The position numbers and the translations under genes were made by a program. A stretch of 23,304 nucleotides of DNA from a virus: the IMG/VR virus record IMGVR_UViG_3300043786_000519, positions 1 to 23,304 of that record. One strand, given 5' to 3'. Below the pieces are notes generated by a model, which saw nothing but the letters and a program-made list of their open reading frames with translations, did not search any database and was not told the DNA's origin. Positions within the stretch are counted from its first letter, which is position 1. Each line of letters opens with the position of its first letter. Positions 16,592 to 22,993 of this stretch are shown piece by piece.

Positions 16592-16620
16592 TTGACAAAA
16601 TAGCAAATATCTGGTAAAAT
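16592..16620 (+). promoter_or_regulatory. strong sigma-70-type promoter for the secreted Ig-like protein
   Basis: TTGACA at 16592-16597, a 17-base spacer and TAAAAT at 16615-16620, with an extended TGG directly before the -10. Predicted transcript start is near 16627, giving a leader of about 60 bases that contains AAGGA before the chosen ATG. It starts three bases after the nrdF stop and is one of the two best promoters in the window. Confidence 0.8.
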
Positions 16621-16686
16621 AGATAGGTTATATAACAGGGTATGGCTAAAAATCATGTCCAAACTACAAAGAAGGAACATATATAT

Positions 16687-17643
16687 ATGACTACAATTAA
16701 GAAGTTGGCTATTGCACTATCTGTAGCCCTTGCTGCAAGCACTCTACCAGTTCTTGCAGCTTCTGCTAATACACAGACACTAACTGTGGCTGGAGTATCT
16801 GCTTCTGGAGGAACAACATCTGCAACAGCAGTTGCTCTTCCAGTGCCAGGCGACACAGTAACAGCATCTAATGCTCTCAGCATTTCTGTTTCTGGAGTTG
16901 TTGCTGGAACGACAGTATCTGCAACTGCTACAAATGCATTTCTACTAACTACTCTAACTGGTGCAACCAATGCATCTGGTTCAGCTGCAGTTACAGTAAA
17001 TGCAAGCACAAGCGGTAGCGTAGAGCTGTTTGTATTTACCAAGACTACTGCAGTTGGTTCTGTTGTAGTTACAGTTGGAAATACTGCTACTACTTACTTT
17101 GTTAGGGGTACTGCTGGAGATGTTGTAAAGGTTGCACTTTCTGCACCAGCATCTGGTCTAGCTGGATCAACCCAGTCAGTAGTTGTATCTGCCTTTGACC
17201 GTTACGACAACGCAAAGGCATCTGGAACAGTAAGCCTAATTGTTAATTCAAATGGTGTAATCACTACGCCAACTGCAACAACTGGTGCTGCTGGTACAGT
17301 TAGCTATGTTGTTACCCTGCCATCCACTGGCTCTCTAGCCGTCACAGCATTTGCTGCTAGCTCTTCTGCTACAGCAGTTATTGCTGTAACACAGCCACGT
17401 AATTTGCAGGCAGAGCTGGACAAAGCACTTGCTGACCTAGCTGCTGAAAAGGCTGCACACGAAGTAACCAAGAATTTGGTAACTTCTATAAGTGCAGAGC
17501 TTGCTGCTGTTAAGTTAGAGCTTGCAACTAGCAAAGACCTTTCTGCAAAGGAAGTTCGTAAGCTAAAGTGGCAGTACAACACACTTGTAAAGAAGTACAA
17601 TGTTGGAAAGCCAAGGGCTGAAAGACTAGCATTTATTAAGTAA
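16687..17643 (+). CDS. Sec-secreted Ig-like (Big-type) protein with C-terminal coiled coil
   Basis: A 318-residue exported protein of unknown role. I choose ATG 16687: AAGGA lies before it and it yields a textbook signal peptide (TTIKK, a hydrophobic core, and a cleavage site after ASA at residue 27). An in-frame ATG at 16642 would put 15 polar residues in front of the signal. The mature part is rich in Ala, Thr, Ser, Val and Gly. Residues around 155-245 resemble an invasin/Big-type Ig domain (VSAFDRYDNAKASGTVSLI, later TGAAGTVSYVVTLPSTGSLAV), with another beta-rich region before it. Residues about 250-300 form a coiled coil (LQAELDKALADLAAEKAAH), and the C-terminus is basic (WQYNTLVKKYNVGKPRAER). 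It has its own promoter and terminator, like a moron. It may coat the host surface; that is inference. Confidence 0.8.
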   Translation: MTTIKKLAIALSVALAASTLPVLAASANTQTLTVAGVSASGGTTSATAVALPVPGDTVTASNALSISVSGVVAGTTVSATATNAFLLTTLTGATNASGSAAVTVNASTSGSVELFVFTKTTAVGSVVVTVGNTATTYFVRGTAGDVVKVALSAPASGLAGSTQSVVVSAFDRYDNAKASGTVSLIVNSNGVITTPTATTGAAGTVSYVVTLPSTGSLAVTAFAASSSATAVIAVTQPRNLQAELDKALADLAAEKAAHEVTKNLVTSISAELAAVKLELATSKDLSAKEVRKLKWQYNTLVKKYNVGKPRAERLAFIK

Positions 17644-17750: not shown

Positions 17751-19868
17751 GTGATACAAATTAAAAAGTCACACAGAGCCTTTGTTGCTCTAACTTTAGC
17801 ATTTTTACCAACTTTTTTGGCTGCCGATCTGGCACACGCAGAAGGGTCTTCTACACAGGTTTCTGTAACGTTAACTTTAGATCAGCAAGTAACGCAAGCA
17901 GAAATCACTGTGACTACAGCTACATCTCAAATACAGGTTGTAACAGAAAACCTAGCTAGCACAAGTGCACTAATACAACAGCTTGTTAGTGGAGGGTCTG
18001 CAGATATTGCTTCTGTATCTGAAGTAATAACATTAGCTACCACAGCTGTAGCAGAGGCCTCCCAGGCTTTATCAAGTGCCTCTGACGCACTATGGGATGT
18101 CAAGCAAAAGCAAGACTCCTACCAGCTTGCAGTTGCCTCTTCACAGCTAGCAGATTCTAATTTAGCTGTGGCACAAACAAGTTATAGCCAGGCAGTAATT
18201 GACCTATCATCCATTAGTGCAGCGGTATCGGGACAGCAACAGATAGTTCAGCAAGAGCAGTCTGAGCTGAATGCCCTAACCAATGTGCCATCAAATAGTT
18301 TTCAAATATCTAGCCCAGGTTGGACAAACTCAGTAGAGGCAAGCACAGCATCTACTACTAGCGTTATCCTTCCACCAATGTGGGATGCATCTACAAAAAT
18401 CGATGTTCCATTTGATATTAGAATGGGAAACACTTTATACGAAGGCCAAGGCAGTGCTAGTCAAATTTATGTAACATCTAAAGCATTTATTTCTTTTGGT
18501 CAGGGGGATCACACATTTTGGGATTGGCCACAGACAACTGGTATATATGTATACCAGTCTGACTGGATGACTGCAGGAGCAGGTGCATACACTAAAGTAA
18601 CAACTACAGACAATACATTAACAGTTGAGTGGTCATTGCATAGATTTGGAGATAGCAATGGCCCACTAACAAGCGTGGTTTGGAATATGTTGGTTGATCC
18701 AGCTACTGGAGAATGGACTGGTTATTCAGAAATATCTGGAAATACAGAAGGTCTTTACGGTGGTCCAAGAATTGGCGTTAGATATTCTAATGGTGGCACT
18801 ATATTTACAATGTCTCCAAGAATAGTAGACTCCGTTTCTGCAGAATTAATTGCTCAACAGCAACAGGTGGTAAGCTCTGAATCAGCAATATTGGTTAATT
18901 TACAAACACAGAAAAGCCTACAAACAATAGTTGTTCAGCAGGCATCTACTTCTCTTGCAGTTGCACAATCTGTATCGTCACAAGCTAATACGGTAGAAGC
19001 ACAAGCATTATCAGAATTTACAACAGCATTACAGAACACACAAAATGTTATAAGTAATTTAATTATTGTTGTTGAAAACGCAGAAACAAAAGTTCAAACC
19101 GCATATGTGGTTACAACAAATGCTATTTCTAATTTGCCTGCCCCCACACCTGCCCCAGAACCAGTTGTAATTCCACAGCCTGAACCAACCCCAGAACCAA
19201 CACCAGAACCTGAACCTACGCCTGATCCGACACCAGAACCTGAACCTACTCCAGAACCTGAACCTACGCCTGATCCGACACCAGAACCTGAACCTACTCC
19301 AGAACCTGAGCCTACTCCAGAGCCAGAACCAAGCCCTGAACCAGAACCAACAGAAGAACCAACGGAAGAACCAGTAACTGAGCCAGACCCTGCTCCAGAA
19401 CCAGAACCCACACCAGAGCCAGAGCCTGCAGAACCAGAAGCACCAGTGCAGCTAAAAGAAGAGGTATCTGCTGAAAACATTGTTTCACTTGTTGAGGAAC
19501 TTGCAAGTATTGAGCCTACACAATTAACTGAGGCACAGGCAGAGGCAATTAAAGAAGCTGCATTAGAAGTATTTGAAACAGCAGAGCCAGGCTCTGAGGC
19601 CTATGAGGCAGCCCTAGATGCATTGATGGTAGTTGCAGAAGCAGATGACTTAGAGTTGCCAGCTGAACTCGCAGAAATTCCACTGATTGGAAATGTTGCA
19701 GGAGCAGTATTAGAAGTATTTAATAATCTTGGAAATGTTGGTGCAGACATGTCACCAGAAATCCGTGAAAAATCAGAAGATGTTGTTGTTGCAGCAGTCA
19801 TTGTTGGACAGGTTGCAATAACAGCTACAACAACAGCTGCCACGGCAGCATCAATAAGGAGGCCGTAA
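17751..19868 (+). CDS. large exported coiled-coil / beta-domain / PEPT-repeat protein with C-terminal membrane anchor
   Basis: A 705-residue protein with no recognised family over its full length. It has a signal peptide (IKKSHR, hydrophobic core, cleavage after AHA at residue 30). A Thr/Ser/Gln/Ala-rich coiled coil spans about 35-180. A beta-domain at about 183-355 ([35 protein letters not shown]) is nidogen-like in pattern. A second coiled coil follows at 360-460, then a PEPT/PEPE linker at about 464-563 typical of wall-spanning proteins, a helical region, and a hydrophobic segment at about 678-702 ([13 protein letters not shown]) ending in RRP. This fits a protein anchored in the membrane and crossing the wall. 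GTG 17751 is adjacent to AGGA, too close for normal initiation; ATT 17760 would be ideally spaced and give MKKSHRAF. The next gene's ATG directly follows the stop. Confidence 0.75.
19203..19298 (+). repeat. perfect 48-base tandem duplication in the PEPT linker
   Basis: Two identical 48-base units, 19203-19250 and 19251-19298, encode a 16-residue proline-glutamate-threonine repeat. A degenerate continuation follows to about 19330. Identity at silent positions suggests a recent duplication, so the linker length is probably variable between relatives. Confidence 0.9.
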
Positions 19869-20054
19869 ATGAAGAAATTTCTAGCTGGATTGTTCAAAGA
19901 TATCATTGACCAGTCCTGGACACTGCTTGGTATGGTAGTTGCCTGGCTAGTTTTGGAAGGCAGTGCCAGGGATCTAACTGGACTATTAATCTTGGTAACA
20001 CTAGCTATCTGGATTATAACCTATCCAATTCGTAGAGAAAAAGACGAAGAATAA
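19869..20054 (+). CDS. small two-helix membrane protein, holin candidate
   Basis: A 61-residue protein with a strong ribosome site (AGGAGG) and an ATG directly after the stop of the 705-residue protein. Two short hydrophobic segments are visible, about residues 15-29 (SWTLLGMVVAWLVL) and 36-52 (LTGLLILVTLAIWIITY), with a basic N-terminus (KKF, FK) and a charged C-terminal tail (PIRREKDEE). Size, topology and proximity to an endolysin gene fit a small holin. Another membrane protein at 20340 is an equal candidate, so the pair could be holin and antiholin. Coupling to the upstream anchored protein suggests joint function. No sequence family is recognised. Confidence 0.7.
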   Translation: MKKFLAGLFKDIIDQSWTLLGMVVAWLVLEGSARDLTGLLILVTLAIWIITYPIRREKDEE

Positions 20055-20073: not shown

Positions 20074-20340
20074 ATGATTAAAAAGACTATTACCCTAATT
20101 GGTGTATCCATTTTAGCCTTTACCCTTTCTGGATGTGGCTATGATGGTCACTATAGATACCCCTGCCAGGACCCAGCTAACTGGGGAACTGAGGAGTGCG
20201 TTCCACCAGTCTGTGAGGCTGCAGGCACATGCACAACAGATTTGCTTGGATATGACCCATTGGCTACAGAATCTGCTACAATAGAAGAGGAAATTGTTGA
20301 AGAAGCAACAGAGTCCGAAACAGTAGAAGTTGAGGAATAA
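20074..20340 (+). CDS. small cysteine-rich lipoprotein
   Basis: An 88-residue lipoprotein starting at ATG 20074; an in-frame codon at 20056 would place residues encoded by the promoter in front and is rejected. The signal peptide is IKKTITLIGVSILAFT, with the lipobox LSGC ending at C21. The mature region is short, with C31, C42, C47 and C53 in a compact segment (YRYPCQDP, NWGTEECVPPVCEAAGTC), enough for two disulfides, and an acidic tail. I recall phage lipoproteins with a YPCQDP-W-EC pattern from aquatic phages, function unknown. Location between two membrane proteins near the endolysin recalls spanin-type lysis genes, but an actinobacterial host has no conventional outer membrane. Superinfection exclusion is an alternative. 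Confidence 0.75.
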   Translation: MIKKTITLIGVSILAFTLSGCGYDGHYRYPCQDPANWGTEECVPPVCEAAGTCTTDLLGYDPLATESATIEEEIVEEATESETVEVEE

Positions 20341-20648
20341 TGGGAAAAAGATATACATCATCAGAGCTAGAGGCTAGACTAAAGTTTTCTCTTGGTCTTA
20401 TTCTTGGATCTATTTTATTGATGACAGCAGTGGGTATTTTGTATGCCTTAATTTTTGTAACCCAGCCAATTGGTGCACAATCTGAGAACGACAAGATGTT
20501 CTTTAATGTTCTTGGAAGCATTGCAACCTTTATTACTGGTACTTTGGCAGGTATTCTAATTGGCCAAAATGGCAAAAATGAAGAACCAGCCGTAGAAGAA
20601 GCTGTGGAATCAGAGCCAGAATTTGAAGAAGGCCAAGAAGAACAGTAA
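20340..20648 (+). CDS. two-helix membrane protein with acidic tail, holin-like
   Basis: A 102-residue protein whose ATG shares a base with the lipoprotein stop, so the two are coupled. Two membrane helices are clear: about 17-40 (LGLILGSILLMTAVGILYAL) and 56-76 (FFNVLGSIATFITGTLAGIL). A charged N-terminus precedes them and a Glu-rich C-terminal tail of about 25 residues follows. The segment between the helices (TQPIGAQSENDK) would face the outside if the N-terminus is inside. Similar proteins, with ATFITGTLAG or close variants, are common in phages and are sometimes called holins without proof. It may be the holin itself or a partner of the lipoprotein. Confidence 0.75.
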   Translation: MGKRYTSSELEARLKFSLGLILGSILLMTAVGILYALIFVTQPIGAQSENDKMFFNVLGSIATFITGTLAGILIGQNGKNEEPAVEEAVESEPEFEEGQEEQ

Positions 20649-20655
20649 AATATAT

Positions 20656-20684
20656 TTGACAAACCCCTTTGTGTTTTGTATAAT
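20656..20684 (+). promoter_or_regulatory. consensus sigma-70 promoter
   Basis: TTGACA at 20656-20661, a 17-base spacer and TATAAT at 20679-20684: both boxes are perfect and the spacing is optimal. The predicted start is near 20691, about 22 bases before the next ATG. It would drive the small acidic protein and the subtilase. An inverted repeat overlaps it. Confidence 0.88.
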
Positions 20685-20712: not shown

Positions 20713-20910
20713 ATGAGTGACAATACTAATACTGATCTAGACAAGCTTCAGTTTTGGGCTTGGTTAGAGATGGGTATAAATAAGGGCTGGGTAACTGAGC
20801 CATTTTGTAACACTCACGATGGTGACCCGCATATGACAGAAGAAGAAGAAAAAGAGTGGGAAGATGGGGGAGACCCATGCTTGCACGTAATTAAACTAAT
20901 AGATAAATAA
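20713..20910 (+). CDS. small acidic Cys/His protein
   Basis: A 65-residue acidic protein directly under the consensus promoter. It has C32-N-T-H35 and, after a Glu-rich helix (MTEEEEKEWEDGGD), C56-L-H58, which together could coordinate one metal ion. No signal peptide or membrane segment is present, so it should be cytoplasmic. I recall similar short proteins with the CxTHDG and EEE-W-x-G-DPC pattern in actinophages, annotated only as hypothetical. Its ribosome site is weak: the predicted leader carries AGAGGGG about nine bases before the ATG. The strong promoter suggests high expression. The subtilase gene follows 19 bases downstream in the same unit. Confidence 0.7.
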   Translation: MSDNTNTDLDKLQFWAWLEMGINKGWVTEPFCNTHDGDPHMTEEEEKEWEDGGDPCLHVIKLIDK

Positions 20911-20929: not shown

Positions 20930-21715
20930 ATGAAGAAACTAGCAATCATTATTGCTACTATTTTTGCACTAGTTGGCATTGCACCAGCTCAGGCAAATAC
21001 TCAGGGTGCCATAGCAATCATTGATGTTAACTTTGAGTCACAACTAATTGATGGTCAGGTCACAGAGGTTTGTGTTACTTCTGTATCAGTATGTAATTCT
21101 GCGGTAGTCCCAAGAAATGCTTCTCAGTTTAAGGCATTTAATCACGGCACCATAATGGCAGATGTTGCAAGGGCAAGCAACCCATCGGCACACCTCATAC
21201 TTCTTGAGGCTGGAACTACAAAAACTGGCGTTGTAACTGGAGTTCAGCTACTTGAAGCACTAAAGTGGGTATCTGCAAATGCGTCTCAATACAACATTAA
21301 GTCTGTATCATTTTCTTATAATGCAGGCAATGGATCTAGATGTACGCCATCTTCTCCAGGAGTAAATGTGCAGGTGGCACACAGTGGCATTGTAAACGCT
21401 ATTGCTACACTAAAGAATGCTGGAGTTAAGTTCTATGCATCATCTGGAAACCATGTAAGAGGAAACCAGGTGGACTACCCAGCATGCATTTCTGACGCTA
21501 TCGCTGTTGGGTCAACAGTGTATGCTGGAAGCACACAGCTATCTGACATTGTTTTATCTGGACCAACGCACACAAGCACAAGACTAAAGTCTGTTAGAAC
21601 CGCATTGCAGGGACTGCACGATTCTTTTGCAATTACTCTTACTGATGCAAATCCAGTTATGGTTGGATTTACTACATCTGTAGCAACAGCTATTGCAGCA
21701 GCTACAAACAAGTAA
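20930..21715 (+). CDS. Sec-secreted subtilisin-like serine protease (S8 family)
   Basis: A 261-residue secreted protein from ATG 20930; TTG 20912 is in frame but would precede the signal peptide (KKLAIIIATIFALVGIAPAQA, cleavage after residue 22). The subtilase triad can be read in order: D32 in IAIIDVNF, H72 in FNHGTIMADVA, the oxyanion Asn 174 in ASSGNH, and S250 in GFTTSVATAIAAA, replacing GTSMAAP. The segment KSVSFSYNAG matches the strand usually written VINMSLG. The mature chain begins directly with the catalytic domain, so there is no I9 propeptide, and the whole enzyme is at the lower size limit of the family. Five cysteines may give disulfides. Targets could be host surface proteins or phage-encoded exported proteins upstream. 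Divergent motifs leave catalytic activity unproven. Confidence 0.8.
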   Translation: MKKLAIIIATIFALVGIAPAQANTQGAIAIIDVNFESQLIDGQVTEVCVTSVSVCNSAVVPRNASQFKAFNHGTIMADVARASNPSAHLILLEAGTTKTGVVTGVQLLEALKWVSANASQYNIKSVSFSYNAGNGSRCTPSSPGVNVQVAHSGIVNAIATLKNAGVKFYASSGNHVRGNQVDYPACISDAIAVGSTVYAGSTQLSDIVLSGPTHTSTRLKSVRTALQGLHDSFAITLTDANPVMVGFTTSVATAIAAATNK

Positions 21716-21723
21716 ATAGGCTA

Positions 21724-21795
21724 TCCCCCTTAGCTCAATGGCAGAGCAGAGAGCTGTTAACTCTAAGGTTCGTGGTTCGAATCCACGAGGGGGAG
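21724..21795 (+). tRNA. tRNA-Asn (GTT)
   Basis: Acceptor TCCCCCT pairs with AGGGGGA, D arm GCTC/GAGC, anticodon loop CTGTTAA with GTT, T arm CGTGG-TTCGAAT-CCACG. No CCA is encoded. The outermost anticodon-stem pair appears to be a G-A mismatch. Confidence 0.92.
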
Positions 21796-21844
21796 CTAAT
21801 GGTTAGTCTGCACCACTCTCCTAATGAGATAAAGCAGACAAATT

Positions 21845-21915
21845 GCGGATATTGCATAGTGGTAGTGCGTAACCTTGCCAAGGTTAATGTGCGAGTTCGA
21901 TTCTCGCTATCCGCT
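21845..21915 (+). tRNA. tRNA-Gly (GCC)
   Basis: Acceptor GCGGATA pairs with TATCCGC; the anticodon loop CTTGCCA contains GCC; T arm GCGAG-TTCGATT-CTCGC. No encoded CCA. It lies 49 bases after tRNA-Asn. Confidence 0.92.
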
Positions 21916-21917
21916 CT

Positions 21918-21991
21918 GGCTCTGTAGCTCAGTTGGTAAGAGCACTACCCTGTCACGGTAGGGGTCGCCAGTTCAAGTCTGGTCAGAGTCG
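21918..21991 (+). tRNA. tRNA-Asp (GTC)
   Basis: Acceptor GGCTCTG pairs with CAGAGTC (one G-T wobble), D arm GCTC/GAGC, anticodon loop CTGTCAC with GTC, T arm GCCAG-TTCAAGT-CTGGT. No encoded CCA. Two bases from tRNA-Gly. Confidence 0.92.
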
Positions 21992-21994
21992 CTT

Positions 21995-22067
21995 GGTCCC
22001 ATCGTCTAGTGGCCCAGGACGCTGCCCTTTCACGGCAGTAGCACGGGTTCGAATCCCGTTGGGACTA
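21995..22067 (+). tRNA. tRNA-Glu (TTC)
   Basis: Acceptor GGTCCCA pairs with TGGGACT (terminal G-T wobble), anticodon loop CTTTCAC with TTC, T arm ACGGG-TTCGAAT-CCCGT. No encoded CCA. Three bases after tRNA-Asp. Confidence 0.92.
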
Positions 22068-22068
22068 C

Positions 22069-22142
22069 GCCGCCTTAGCTCAGTTGGCCAGAGCATCCGC
22101 CTTGTAAGCGGAGGGTCGTGAGTTCGAATCTCACAGGTGGCT
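22069..22142 (+). tRNA. tRNA-Thr (TGT)
   Basis: Acceptor GCCGCCT pairs with AGGTGGC (one G-T wobble), D arm GCTC/GAGC, anticodon loop CTTGTAA with TGT, T arm GTGAG-TTCGAAT-CTCAC. No encoded CCA. One base after tRNA-Glu. Confidence 0.92.
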
Positions 22143-22153
22143 CTCCTTATTAG

Positions 22154-22180: not shown

Positions 22181-22993
22181 ATGGCTAAAGCACAAATGCC
22201 ACTTTCTGGCTTGCTAGGCAAGCACTGGAGAGTAACTAGCTACATGGGTTGGAGAATTCACCCAGTAAAGAAAACACGCAAGCATCACAATGGAACTGAC
22301 ATTATTTATACCGCTGGAAAAGATCGTGGTATTTATGCTCCATATCCTGGAACAGTTACATATGCTGGACCATCCAAGACAAAACAAGACAACGGTGAGC
22401 CAAGTGGTTTTGGATATTACGTAAAGATTACGCATAACATTAATGGTCAATTTTATAGCTCTTTGTATGCCCACCTTGTTAAGGGTTCAATGAAGGTTAA
22501 GCAGGGTGATAAAGTTAAAGCTGGAGATCTTCTTGGAACGATGGGGACCAGCGGTATGAGCACTGGCGTACATTTGCACTGGGAAATTTGGAAGGGAAAG
22601 ACACACGGATGGTCTGACGATGGCAAGGGATTCGTTGAGCCAATTGAGTTTATGAAGTCTCTAATTGCCCTTGAAGGTGCTGCAGATTATGCCAATGTTG
22701 GATCTGCTCCATCAAACAAGGCCAGCTCTCCTAATACACCAGGTGCAGCTGCAAAGCCAGTTGAGGCCAAGCCAAAGCCTGCAAAGCCTGCAGCTAAGCC
22801 AGCTGCTAAGCCCGCTACAAAGGCCACTCAGAAGCCCGCAAATGCCCCTAAAACGGCACATAAAGTTGTTTCTGGGGATACACTAAGCAAAATTGCATCT
22901 AGGTATGGAACCACAGTGCAAAAGCTTGTTAGTTTAAATAAGCTTAAAAATGCTAATCAAATCAAAGTTGGACAGATTATCAAACTAAGATAA
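22181..22993 (+). CDS. endolysin: M23 peptidase with C-terminal LysM
   Basis: Peptidoglycan endopeptidase of 270 residues that would lyse the host at the end of infection. The M23 zinc site is complete: H36-x3-D40 in HHNGTD, H98 in LYAHL, and H131-L-H133 in VHLHWE, within a lysostaphin-like fold (GWRIHPVKKTRKHHNGTD). A low-complexity linker of Ala-Lys-Pro repeats occupies about residues 180-220, and a LysM wall-binding domain spans about 227-270 (HKVVSGDTLSKIASRYGTT). No signal peptide is present, so release would need one of the holin-like proteins encoded upstream. A strong ribosome site AAAGGAG precedes the ATG. The stop shares a base with the next ATG. A virion-associated hydrolase is less likely, given the free-standing short architecture. 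Confidence 0.92.
   Translation: MAKAQMPLSGLLGKHWRVTSYMGWRIHPVKKTRKHHNGTDIIYTAGKDRGIYAPYPGTVTYAGPSKTKQDNGEPSGFGYYVKITHNINGQFYSSLYAHLVKGSMKVKQGDKVKAGDLLGTMGTSGMSTGVHLHWEIWKGKTHGWSDDGKGFVEPIEFMKSLIALEGAADYANVGSAPSNKASSPNTPGAAAKPVEAKPKPAKPAAKPAAKPATKATQKPANAPKTAHKVVSGDTLSKIASRYGTTVQKLVSLNKLKNANQIKVGQIIKLR

Follow-up and report, generated by a model that had tools for sequence, protein, structure and literature searches.

The dependence of subtilisins on a folding catalyst has so far been studied mainly in engineered mutants. Subtilisin BPN' with residues 75 to 83 deleted refolds greatly faster than its parent, and the engineered BPN' variant Sbt-70 folds without its prodomain (PMC4865297); 3bgo is a further variant that carries the 75-83 deletion (PMC7935941). 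Natural subtilisins that lack the propeptide and the calcium-A loop and that have conserved cysteines would be a ready system in which to ask what makes a folding catalyst necessary for the classical enzymes.

To our knowledge, a need for secreted proteases is not usually ascribed to phages. Our literature searches on phage-encoded or freshwater-phage subtilases returned nothing relevant, and neither Kavagutti 2019 nor the Nanopelagicales phage paper mentions proteases in its main text. Here, we followed up a sequence-only reading of a 23,304-base virus fragment (the whole analyzed stretch, hereafter the window), which had proposed a secreted subtilase without a propeptide. The observation is upheld, and the exchange of peptidases at the position of this gene is a more interesting result than the subtilase itself.

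The subtilase gene and its product

The open reading frame at positions 20930 to 21715 of the window (plus strand) starts with ATG, encodes 261 amino acids, and is confirmed by sequence comparison as a phage-encoded S8 subtilase. Pfam PF00082 (Peptidase_S8) matches the window protein at 29.5 bits, above its curated cut-off of 21.8, and matches 30 of 48 phage relatives at E <= 0.01. The residues read as catalytic were correctly assigned, with codons as described: in an HMM alignment, Asp32 (GAT, 21023 to 21025), His72 (CAC, 21143 to 21145), the oxyanion Asn174 (AAC, 21449 to 21451), and Ser250 (TCT, 21677 to 21679), all on the plus strand, align with D32, H64, N155, and S221 of BPN'. The reading had staked its identification on homologues keeping these residues, and all four are invariant in the 48 aligned relatives, which are 27 to 76% identical to the window protein. 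The remaining invariant columns are I30, C48, C55, G73, C138, L161, G173, P184, C186, and T249, and the four cysteines among them would fit an extracytoplasmic protein. Pairwise dN/dS was 0.1 to 0.35 in most of the pairs compared, which indicates that selection on the gene is purifying and that it is no chance ORF; the value of 0.57 in one pair of near-identical copies reflects very few changes.

The same fragment carries helicase, primase, DNA polymerase, and RecA-like genes (read from translations), a ribonucleotide reductase gene (identified by Pfam), and a terminase that matches phage terminases. With these replication, packaging, and reductase genes on the record, the subtilase gene is phage-borne, as had been claimed. 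The gene does not correspond to the prohead maturation protease type, which is cytoplasmic and encoded beside capsid or portal genes: its product has a signal peptide, and it sits between exported or membrane genes and an endolysin-like gene.

The predicted N-terminus, MKK-LAIIIATIFALVGIAP-AQA followed by N, is a typical Sec signal composed of MKK, a hydrophobic core, and AQA (20930 to 20995, plus strand; about 22 residues, with predicted cleavage after AQA), judged by eye and by simple rules. The MKK...AxA pattern is kept in nearly all relatives, which bears out the proposed signal peptide, and it is followed almost directly, with few residues between, by the IAIID catalytic strand. A simple pattern count, in which members were not checked singly, put the catalytic Asp at position 32 or 33 of the protein for 68 of 82 subtilases from this genomic position and at 31 to 57 for nearly all others. 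There is no Pfam match to the Inhibitor_I9 domain in the window subtilase, and that domain was found nowhere in 13 phage records (the window and 12 others) at E <= 1, with control genomes positive. The proposed absence of a propeptide thus holds in cis and, in these 13 records, in trans.

Some members depart from this compact layout. In the subtilase of locus L019 (5783 to 6763), about 55 residues separate the signal peptide from the catalytic domain, and one stretch among them (NYEEWLKAGVDNGWVV) resembles the start of c2, the small gene described below, so that part of c2 may have been fused to it. Those of L005 (8001 to 9038), L006 (8001 to 9038), L099, and L100 have a C-terminal extension of about 75 to 85 residues with a helix-like end (LRDLASQLDSVYNN).

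An AF2 model built from the 48-sequence alignment (pLDDT 68.7, pTM 0.72) is of moderate confidence overall and poor at residues 197 to 246, with the local geometry beside Ser250 blurred. Foldseek, the structural search suggested with the original reading, matched this model only to sedolisins and subtilases at E < 0.001. In VIA, model residues 25 to 261 superpose on BPN' 25 to 232 with a Z of about 16 and an rmsd of about 2.8 over 176 residues, the best subtilase or sedolisin match reaching a Z of 16.6 over 187 residues. As modeled, the window protein has the subtilisin alpha/beta fold, and convergence of the predicted triad is supported by the fold alignment together with conservation.

By the VIA alignment, the phage enzyme has no counterpart to residues 1 to 24 of mature BPN' or to roughly its last 40. 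This truncation and the atypical serine motif, TTSVAT where GTSMAxP is usual, would suit a catalytically dead subtilase-like protein that serves in binding. We consider such a role highly improbable, given that D, H, N, and S are invariant in 48 relatives under purifying selection and that the subtilase is replaced, at the same position in other phages, by peptidases with intact catalytic motifs. We infer from these residues that the window subtilase is catalytic.

A single-sequence phmmer search of the PDB gave nothing useful for the window subtilase. With the family profile, the best PDB sequence matches were mostly BPN' variants engineered without residues 75 to 83, and no gap followed H64 when the profile was aligned to loop-deleted BPN'; by this alignment, the calcium-A loop (BPN' 75 to 83) is naturally missing in the phage family. 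That natural loss might ease folding without a propeptide, although the analogy is suggestive only: some loopless subtilases need a propeptide, so that the absence of the loop proves nothing by itself. Proteinase K is one such enzyme, lacking the calcium loop and still needing its propeptide. The four cysteines, for their part, could couple folding to export into an oxidizing space.

Promoter, head gene, and neighborhood

The consensus promoter noted in the sequence-only reading is a sigma-70-type TTGACA-17 nt-TATAAT (12/12; 20656 to 20684, plus strand), with a -35 box placed 274 nt upstream of the subtilase start codon. It stands before c2, with the subtilase as second gene, and would therefore drive both. 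The c2 gene (20713 to 20910, plus strand), which heads what we call the slot, encodes a small acidic protein of 65 amino acids without a signal peptide, is recognized in alignment by GW..(P)FC.THDGDP.MT.EE..EWE.GGDPC, and has no Pfam or PHROG match. Of 57 distinct loci, 48 have c2 immediately 5' of the subtilase. In most relatives, the subtilase ATG is preceded at about 235 to 310 nt by a promoter close to consensus, its boxes 17 nt apart; the promoter is nearer (-88 and -60) where c2 is missing (L008 and L020). The head of promoter and c2 is conserved in dozens of phages, and the cargo behind it is exchangeable. We considered c2 as a propeptide acting in trans and rejected it: c2 has no signal peptide and no I9 match, and it occurs beside non-S8 cargo and also without any peptidase.

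Upstream, also on the plus strand, are genes for SecB16, an exported Ig-like/coiled-coil protein (16642 to 17643), and SecA8, an exported PEP-repeat protein (17751 to 19868), both with relatives in phages where no subtilase was found. These are followed by genes for TM14, a small membrane protein and candidate holin (19869 to 20054), a small lipoprotein with an LSGC lipobox (20074 to 20340), and the membrane protein TM18 (20340 to 20648; phrog_25359, 1.6e-14). A second strong promoter-like site, TTGACA-17-TAAAAT (11/12; 16592 to 16620), precedes SecB16. Five tRNA genes (Asn, Gly, Asp, Glu, and Thr; 21724 to 22143) come directly after the subtilase, and tRNA-like sequences are also found 3' of the L007 subtilase. 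Beyond the five tRNA genes, 3' of the slot, is a gene for an M23 peptidase with LysM, a probable endolysin (22181 to 22993, plus strand; PF01551, 7.4e-22; PF01476, 1.8e-16). Of 30 loci, 22 have an endolysin-like gene and 25 a holin-like membrane protein within 6 kb of the subtilase.

This neighborhood bears on the earlier suggestion that the subtilase serves to mature the phage's own exported products from the upstream genes, SecA8 and SecB16. The genes are indeed neighbors, SecA8 lying within 6 kb in all 30 subtilase loci with enough upstream sequence; even so, SecA8 or SecB16 is present where the same region has no subtilase (L105, L110, L130, L135, and L163), and the peptidases that replace it come from unrelated families with different expected specificities. 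Because the upstream exported proteins occur without any subtilase, the suggestion is weakened, and we hold a maturation role to be very unlikely.

Other genes recur near the slot. An HslV-family Ntn peptidase (L059, 1325 to 1849, and cluster c7; phrog_1040, 9.6e-19) is encoded just upstream of c2 in most of a sister clade, in which a second peptidase, without a signal peptide, thus accompanies the slot. A small heat-shock gene of the Hsp20 type (L072, 2329 to 2757, and cluster c3; PF00011, 1.1e-18) is the next gene after the subtilase in 23 loci. Full-length KatG-like catalase-peroxidase genes, recognized by eye, are found near the subtilase and c2 in L003 (9490 to 11643) and L004 (4704 to 6860), in line with the oxidative-stress genes reported for freshwater phages (PMC6802176).

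Exchange of peptidases in the slot

Successive scans of IMG/VR recovered 8, then 15, then 79 related subtilase loci, in overlapping sets. The claim that secreted subtilases are rare in tailed phages holds for sequenced isolates, since tblastn found no relative in 50,697 phage records (only matches at E > 0.5), but not for the actinophage group of the window, in which 11 of 28 long terminase-related contigs have the gene. More than half of these contigs show no copy, although fragments may hide some, and the gene is accessory. An in-frame TAA interrupts the subtilase in L007 (8394 to 8396) and in records G025 and G028, as occasional loss of an accessory gene or as assembly error. No cellular relative came up in two scans of bacterial genomes; as the patterns used were tuned to the phage family, a cellular source may still exist. 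WhiB genes in relatives and a terminase closest to those of Streptomyces and Gordonia phages point to aquatic actinobacteria as probable hosts.

Where the subtilase is missing, c2 often precedes other genes, including other secreted peptidases. A secreted trypsin-like S1 enzyme (PF00089 above cut-off) occupies the slot of L105, and L272 has a trypsin-like enzyme with AGHC...DSGSP. Secreted HExxH...E zincins are found in L163 and other slots, with a zincin relative in L110 that has HGATH and so keeps both His and the distal Glu and has lost the general base; L261 has a metzincin-like enzyme (PF13582 above cut-off). In all 12 alternative slots examined, the same promoter type is found 175 to 332 nt upstream.

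Among distinct first ORFs after c2, with loci found via the subtilase itself excluded and by a motif count that misses L272 and L110, a terminase-based scan gave 14 S8, 1 S1, 2 HExxH, and 6 other genes; scans with c2, whose queries were taken from two protease-bearing slots, gave 18 S8, 8 HExxH, 1 S1, and 31 other. Peptidases thus have no exclusive claim to the slot: in about half of the c2-scan cases it is filled by another gene, mostly for a non-secreted product such as M23, Hsp20, or a glycosyltransferase. Nevertheless, HExxH or GDSGG was present in 10 of 14 predicted secreted non-S8 proteins encoded in the slot, whereas outside the slot these loci gave 1 such protein in 120 (p = 3e-11), a comparison based on simple signal-peptide rules and motif counts in loci that are not fully independent. 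The single case outside the slot, in L259, resembles the slot protein of L261.

A 60-row terminase tree places the S1-bearing phage and the zincin-bearing phages at separate points among those that have the subtilase, and close terminase relatives differ in slot enzyme. The S8 label changes six times, at least three of these changes being forced by well supported branches; phage genomes being modular, the tree shows a mismatch with terminase history and not an exact number of swaps. We think it probable, with a fair measure of doubt, that a slot with its own promoter is common to a large group of actinobacteriophages and often holds an exported peptidase, drawn from four or more unrelated types (propeptide-less S8, S1, HExxH...E zincins, and metzincin-like), that selection for proteolysis outside the cytoplasm has brought about repeated non-homologous replacement there, and that the S8 occupants are natural self-folding subtilisins.

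Export, combined with repeated replacement by unrelated peptidases, suggests that proteolysis outside the cytoplasm is what is selected. Given the exported, membrane-bound, and lytic neighbor genes, host envelope proteins would be the most likely substrates, cleaved for release or for a change of the surface. We therefore lean, by a little, toward an active, exported, compact, and propeptide-free subtilisin that is cargo of an exchangeable secreted-peptidase slot and degrades host envelope proteins. In the proposed sequence of events, the slot, with its own promoter, then c2, then the peptidase gene, would be expressed from within the envelope and lysis region; the subtilase would be exported via Sec and would fold outside the cytoplasm without a propeptide, disulfides formed there acting as a putative switch that keeps the enzyme inactive before export; and the product would cut host envelope proteins, presumably of the surface or wall, which may help progeny leave or alter the surface for later phages.

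The original proposal that surface cleavage serves release or a block to superinfection is strengthened by the way in which secreted peptidases of unrelated families replace one another in this slot. Taken separately, superinfection exclusion would have the exported protease shave receptors off the infected cell, with the various slot enzymes matching different host receptors. Such swapping among close relatives fits an arms race over surface proteins, and a host-type promoter of its own would allow expression apart from neighboring genes; yet a free protease would act on neighboring cells too, and closeness to endolysin and holin-like genes fits release equally, so that we see exclusion as a possible but unlikely main function. 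Less likely again is nutrient supply, in which protein from the surroundings or the cell surface would be broken down by the exported peptidases and the peptides would feed the host during infection. A general need for proteolysis, more than for one cleavage site, fits non-homologous exchange, whereas a diffusible enzyme made by a planktonic cell in dilute water would bring little private return within one infection, and no peptide uptake genes were recognized beside the slot. Should peptidases of several unrelated kinds indeed have entered this one slot and its promoter time and again, viruses of aquatic actinobacteria would have an overlooked process that needs extracytoplasmic proteolysis.

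Comparison with known subtilisins

Phage subtilase domains have already been catalogued, in that PHROG 3677 ('protease') is matched by 38 of the 48 relatives, though not by the window protein itself. Its profile of 1125 positions, matched at about 596 to 801, describes large proteins, in contrast to the compact secreted enzymes found here. The best viral structure match (9.1e-15) is A0A6J5P4E2, a 'Peptidase S8/S53 domain-containing protein' of 301 amino acids from an uncultured Caudovirales phage; at 30% identity it is probably a member of the same family, and it is apparently an annotated record only, for which we found no description of a missing propeptide or of a slot.

QhpE-type subtilisins (NF049966) are likewise compact and belong to quinohemoprotein maturation. 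Two phage relatives match this model weakly (8.2e-5 and 1.1e-3), with scores of at most 22.1 against a cut-off of 165 bits; the window protein does not match, and no quinohemoprotein maturation genes were recognized at the phage subtilase loci. Classical extracellular subtilisins, with their pre-pro-mature organization, share the Sec signal with the phage enzyme but differ in having the I9 propeptide and calcium site A.

The closest likeness is to subtilisin BPN' and the S8A group, especially the engineered calcium-free variants without residues 75 to 83 (5ox2, 3bgo, 3f49, and 6ube), with which the phage enzyme has in common the predicted fold and the order and alignment of D32, H64, N155, and S221. 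Identity is about 22 to 24% over the aligned core, and the phage enzyme differs in lacking a propeptide, in beginning at the equivalent of BPN' residue 25 and ending near 232, and in having four invariant cysteines. What was deleted by design from the calcium-free BPN' variants, the calcium-A loop, is also absent from the phage subtilase.
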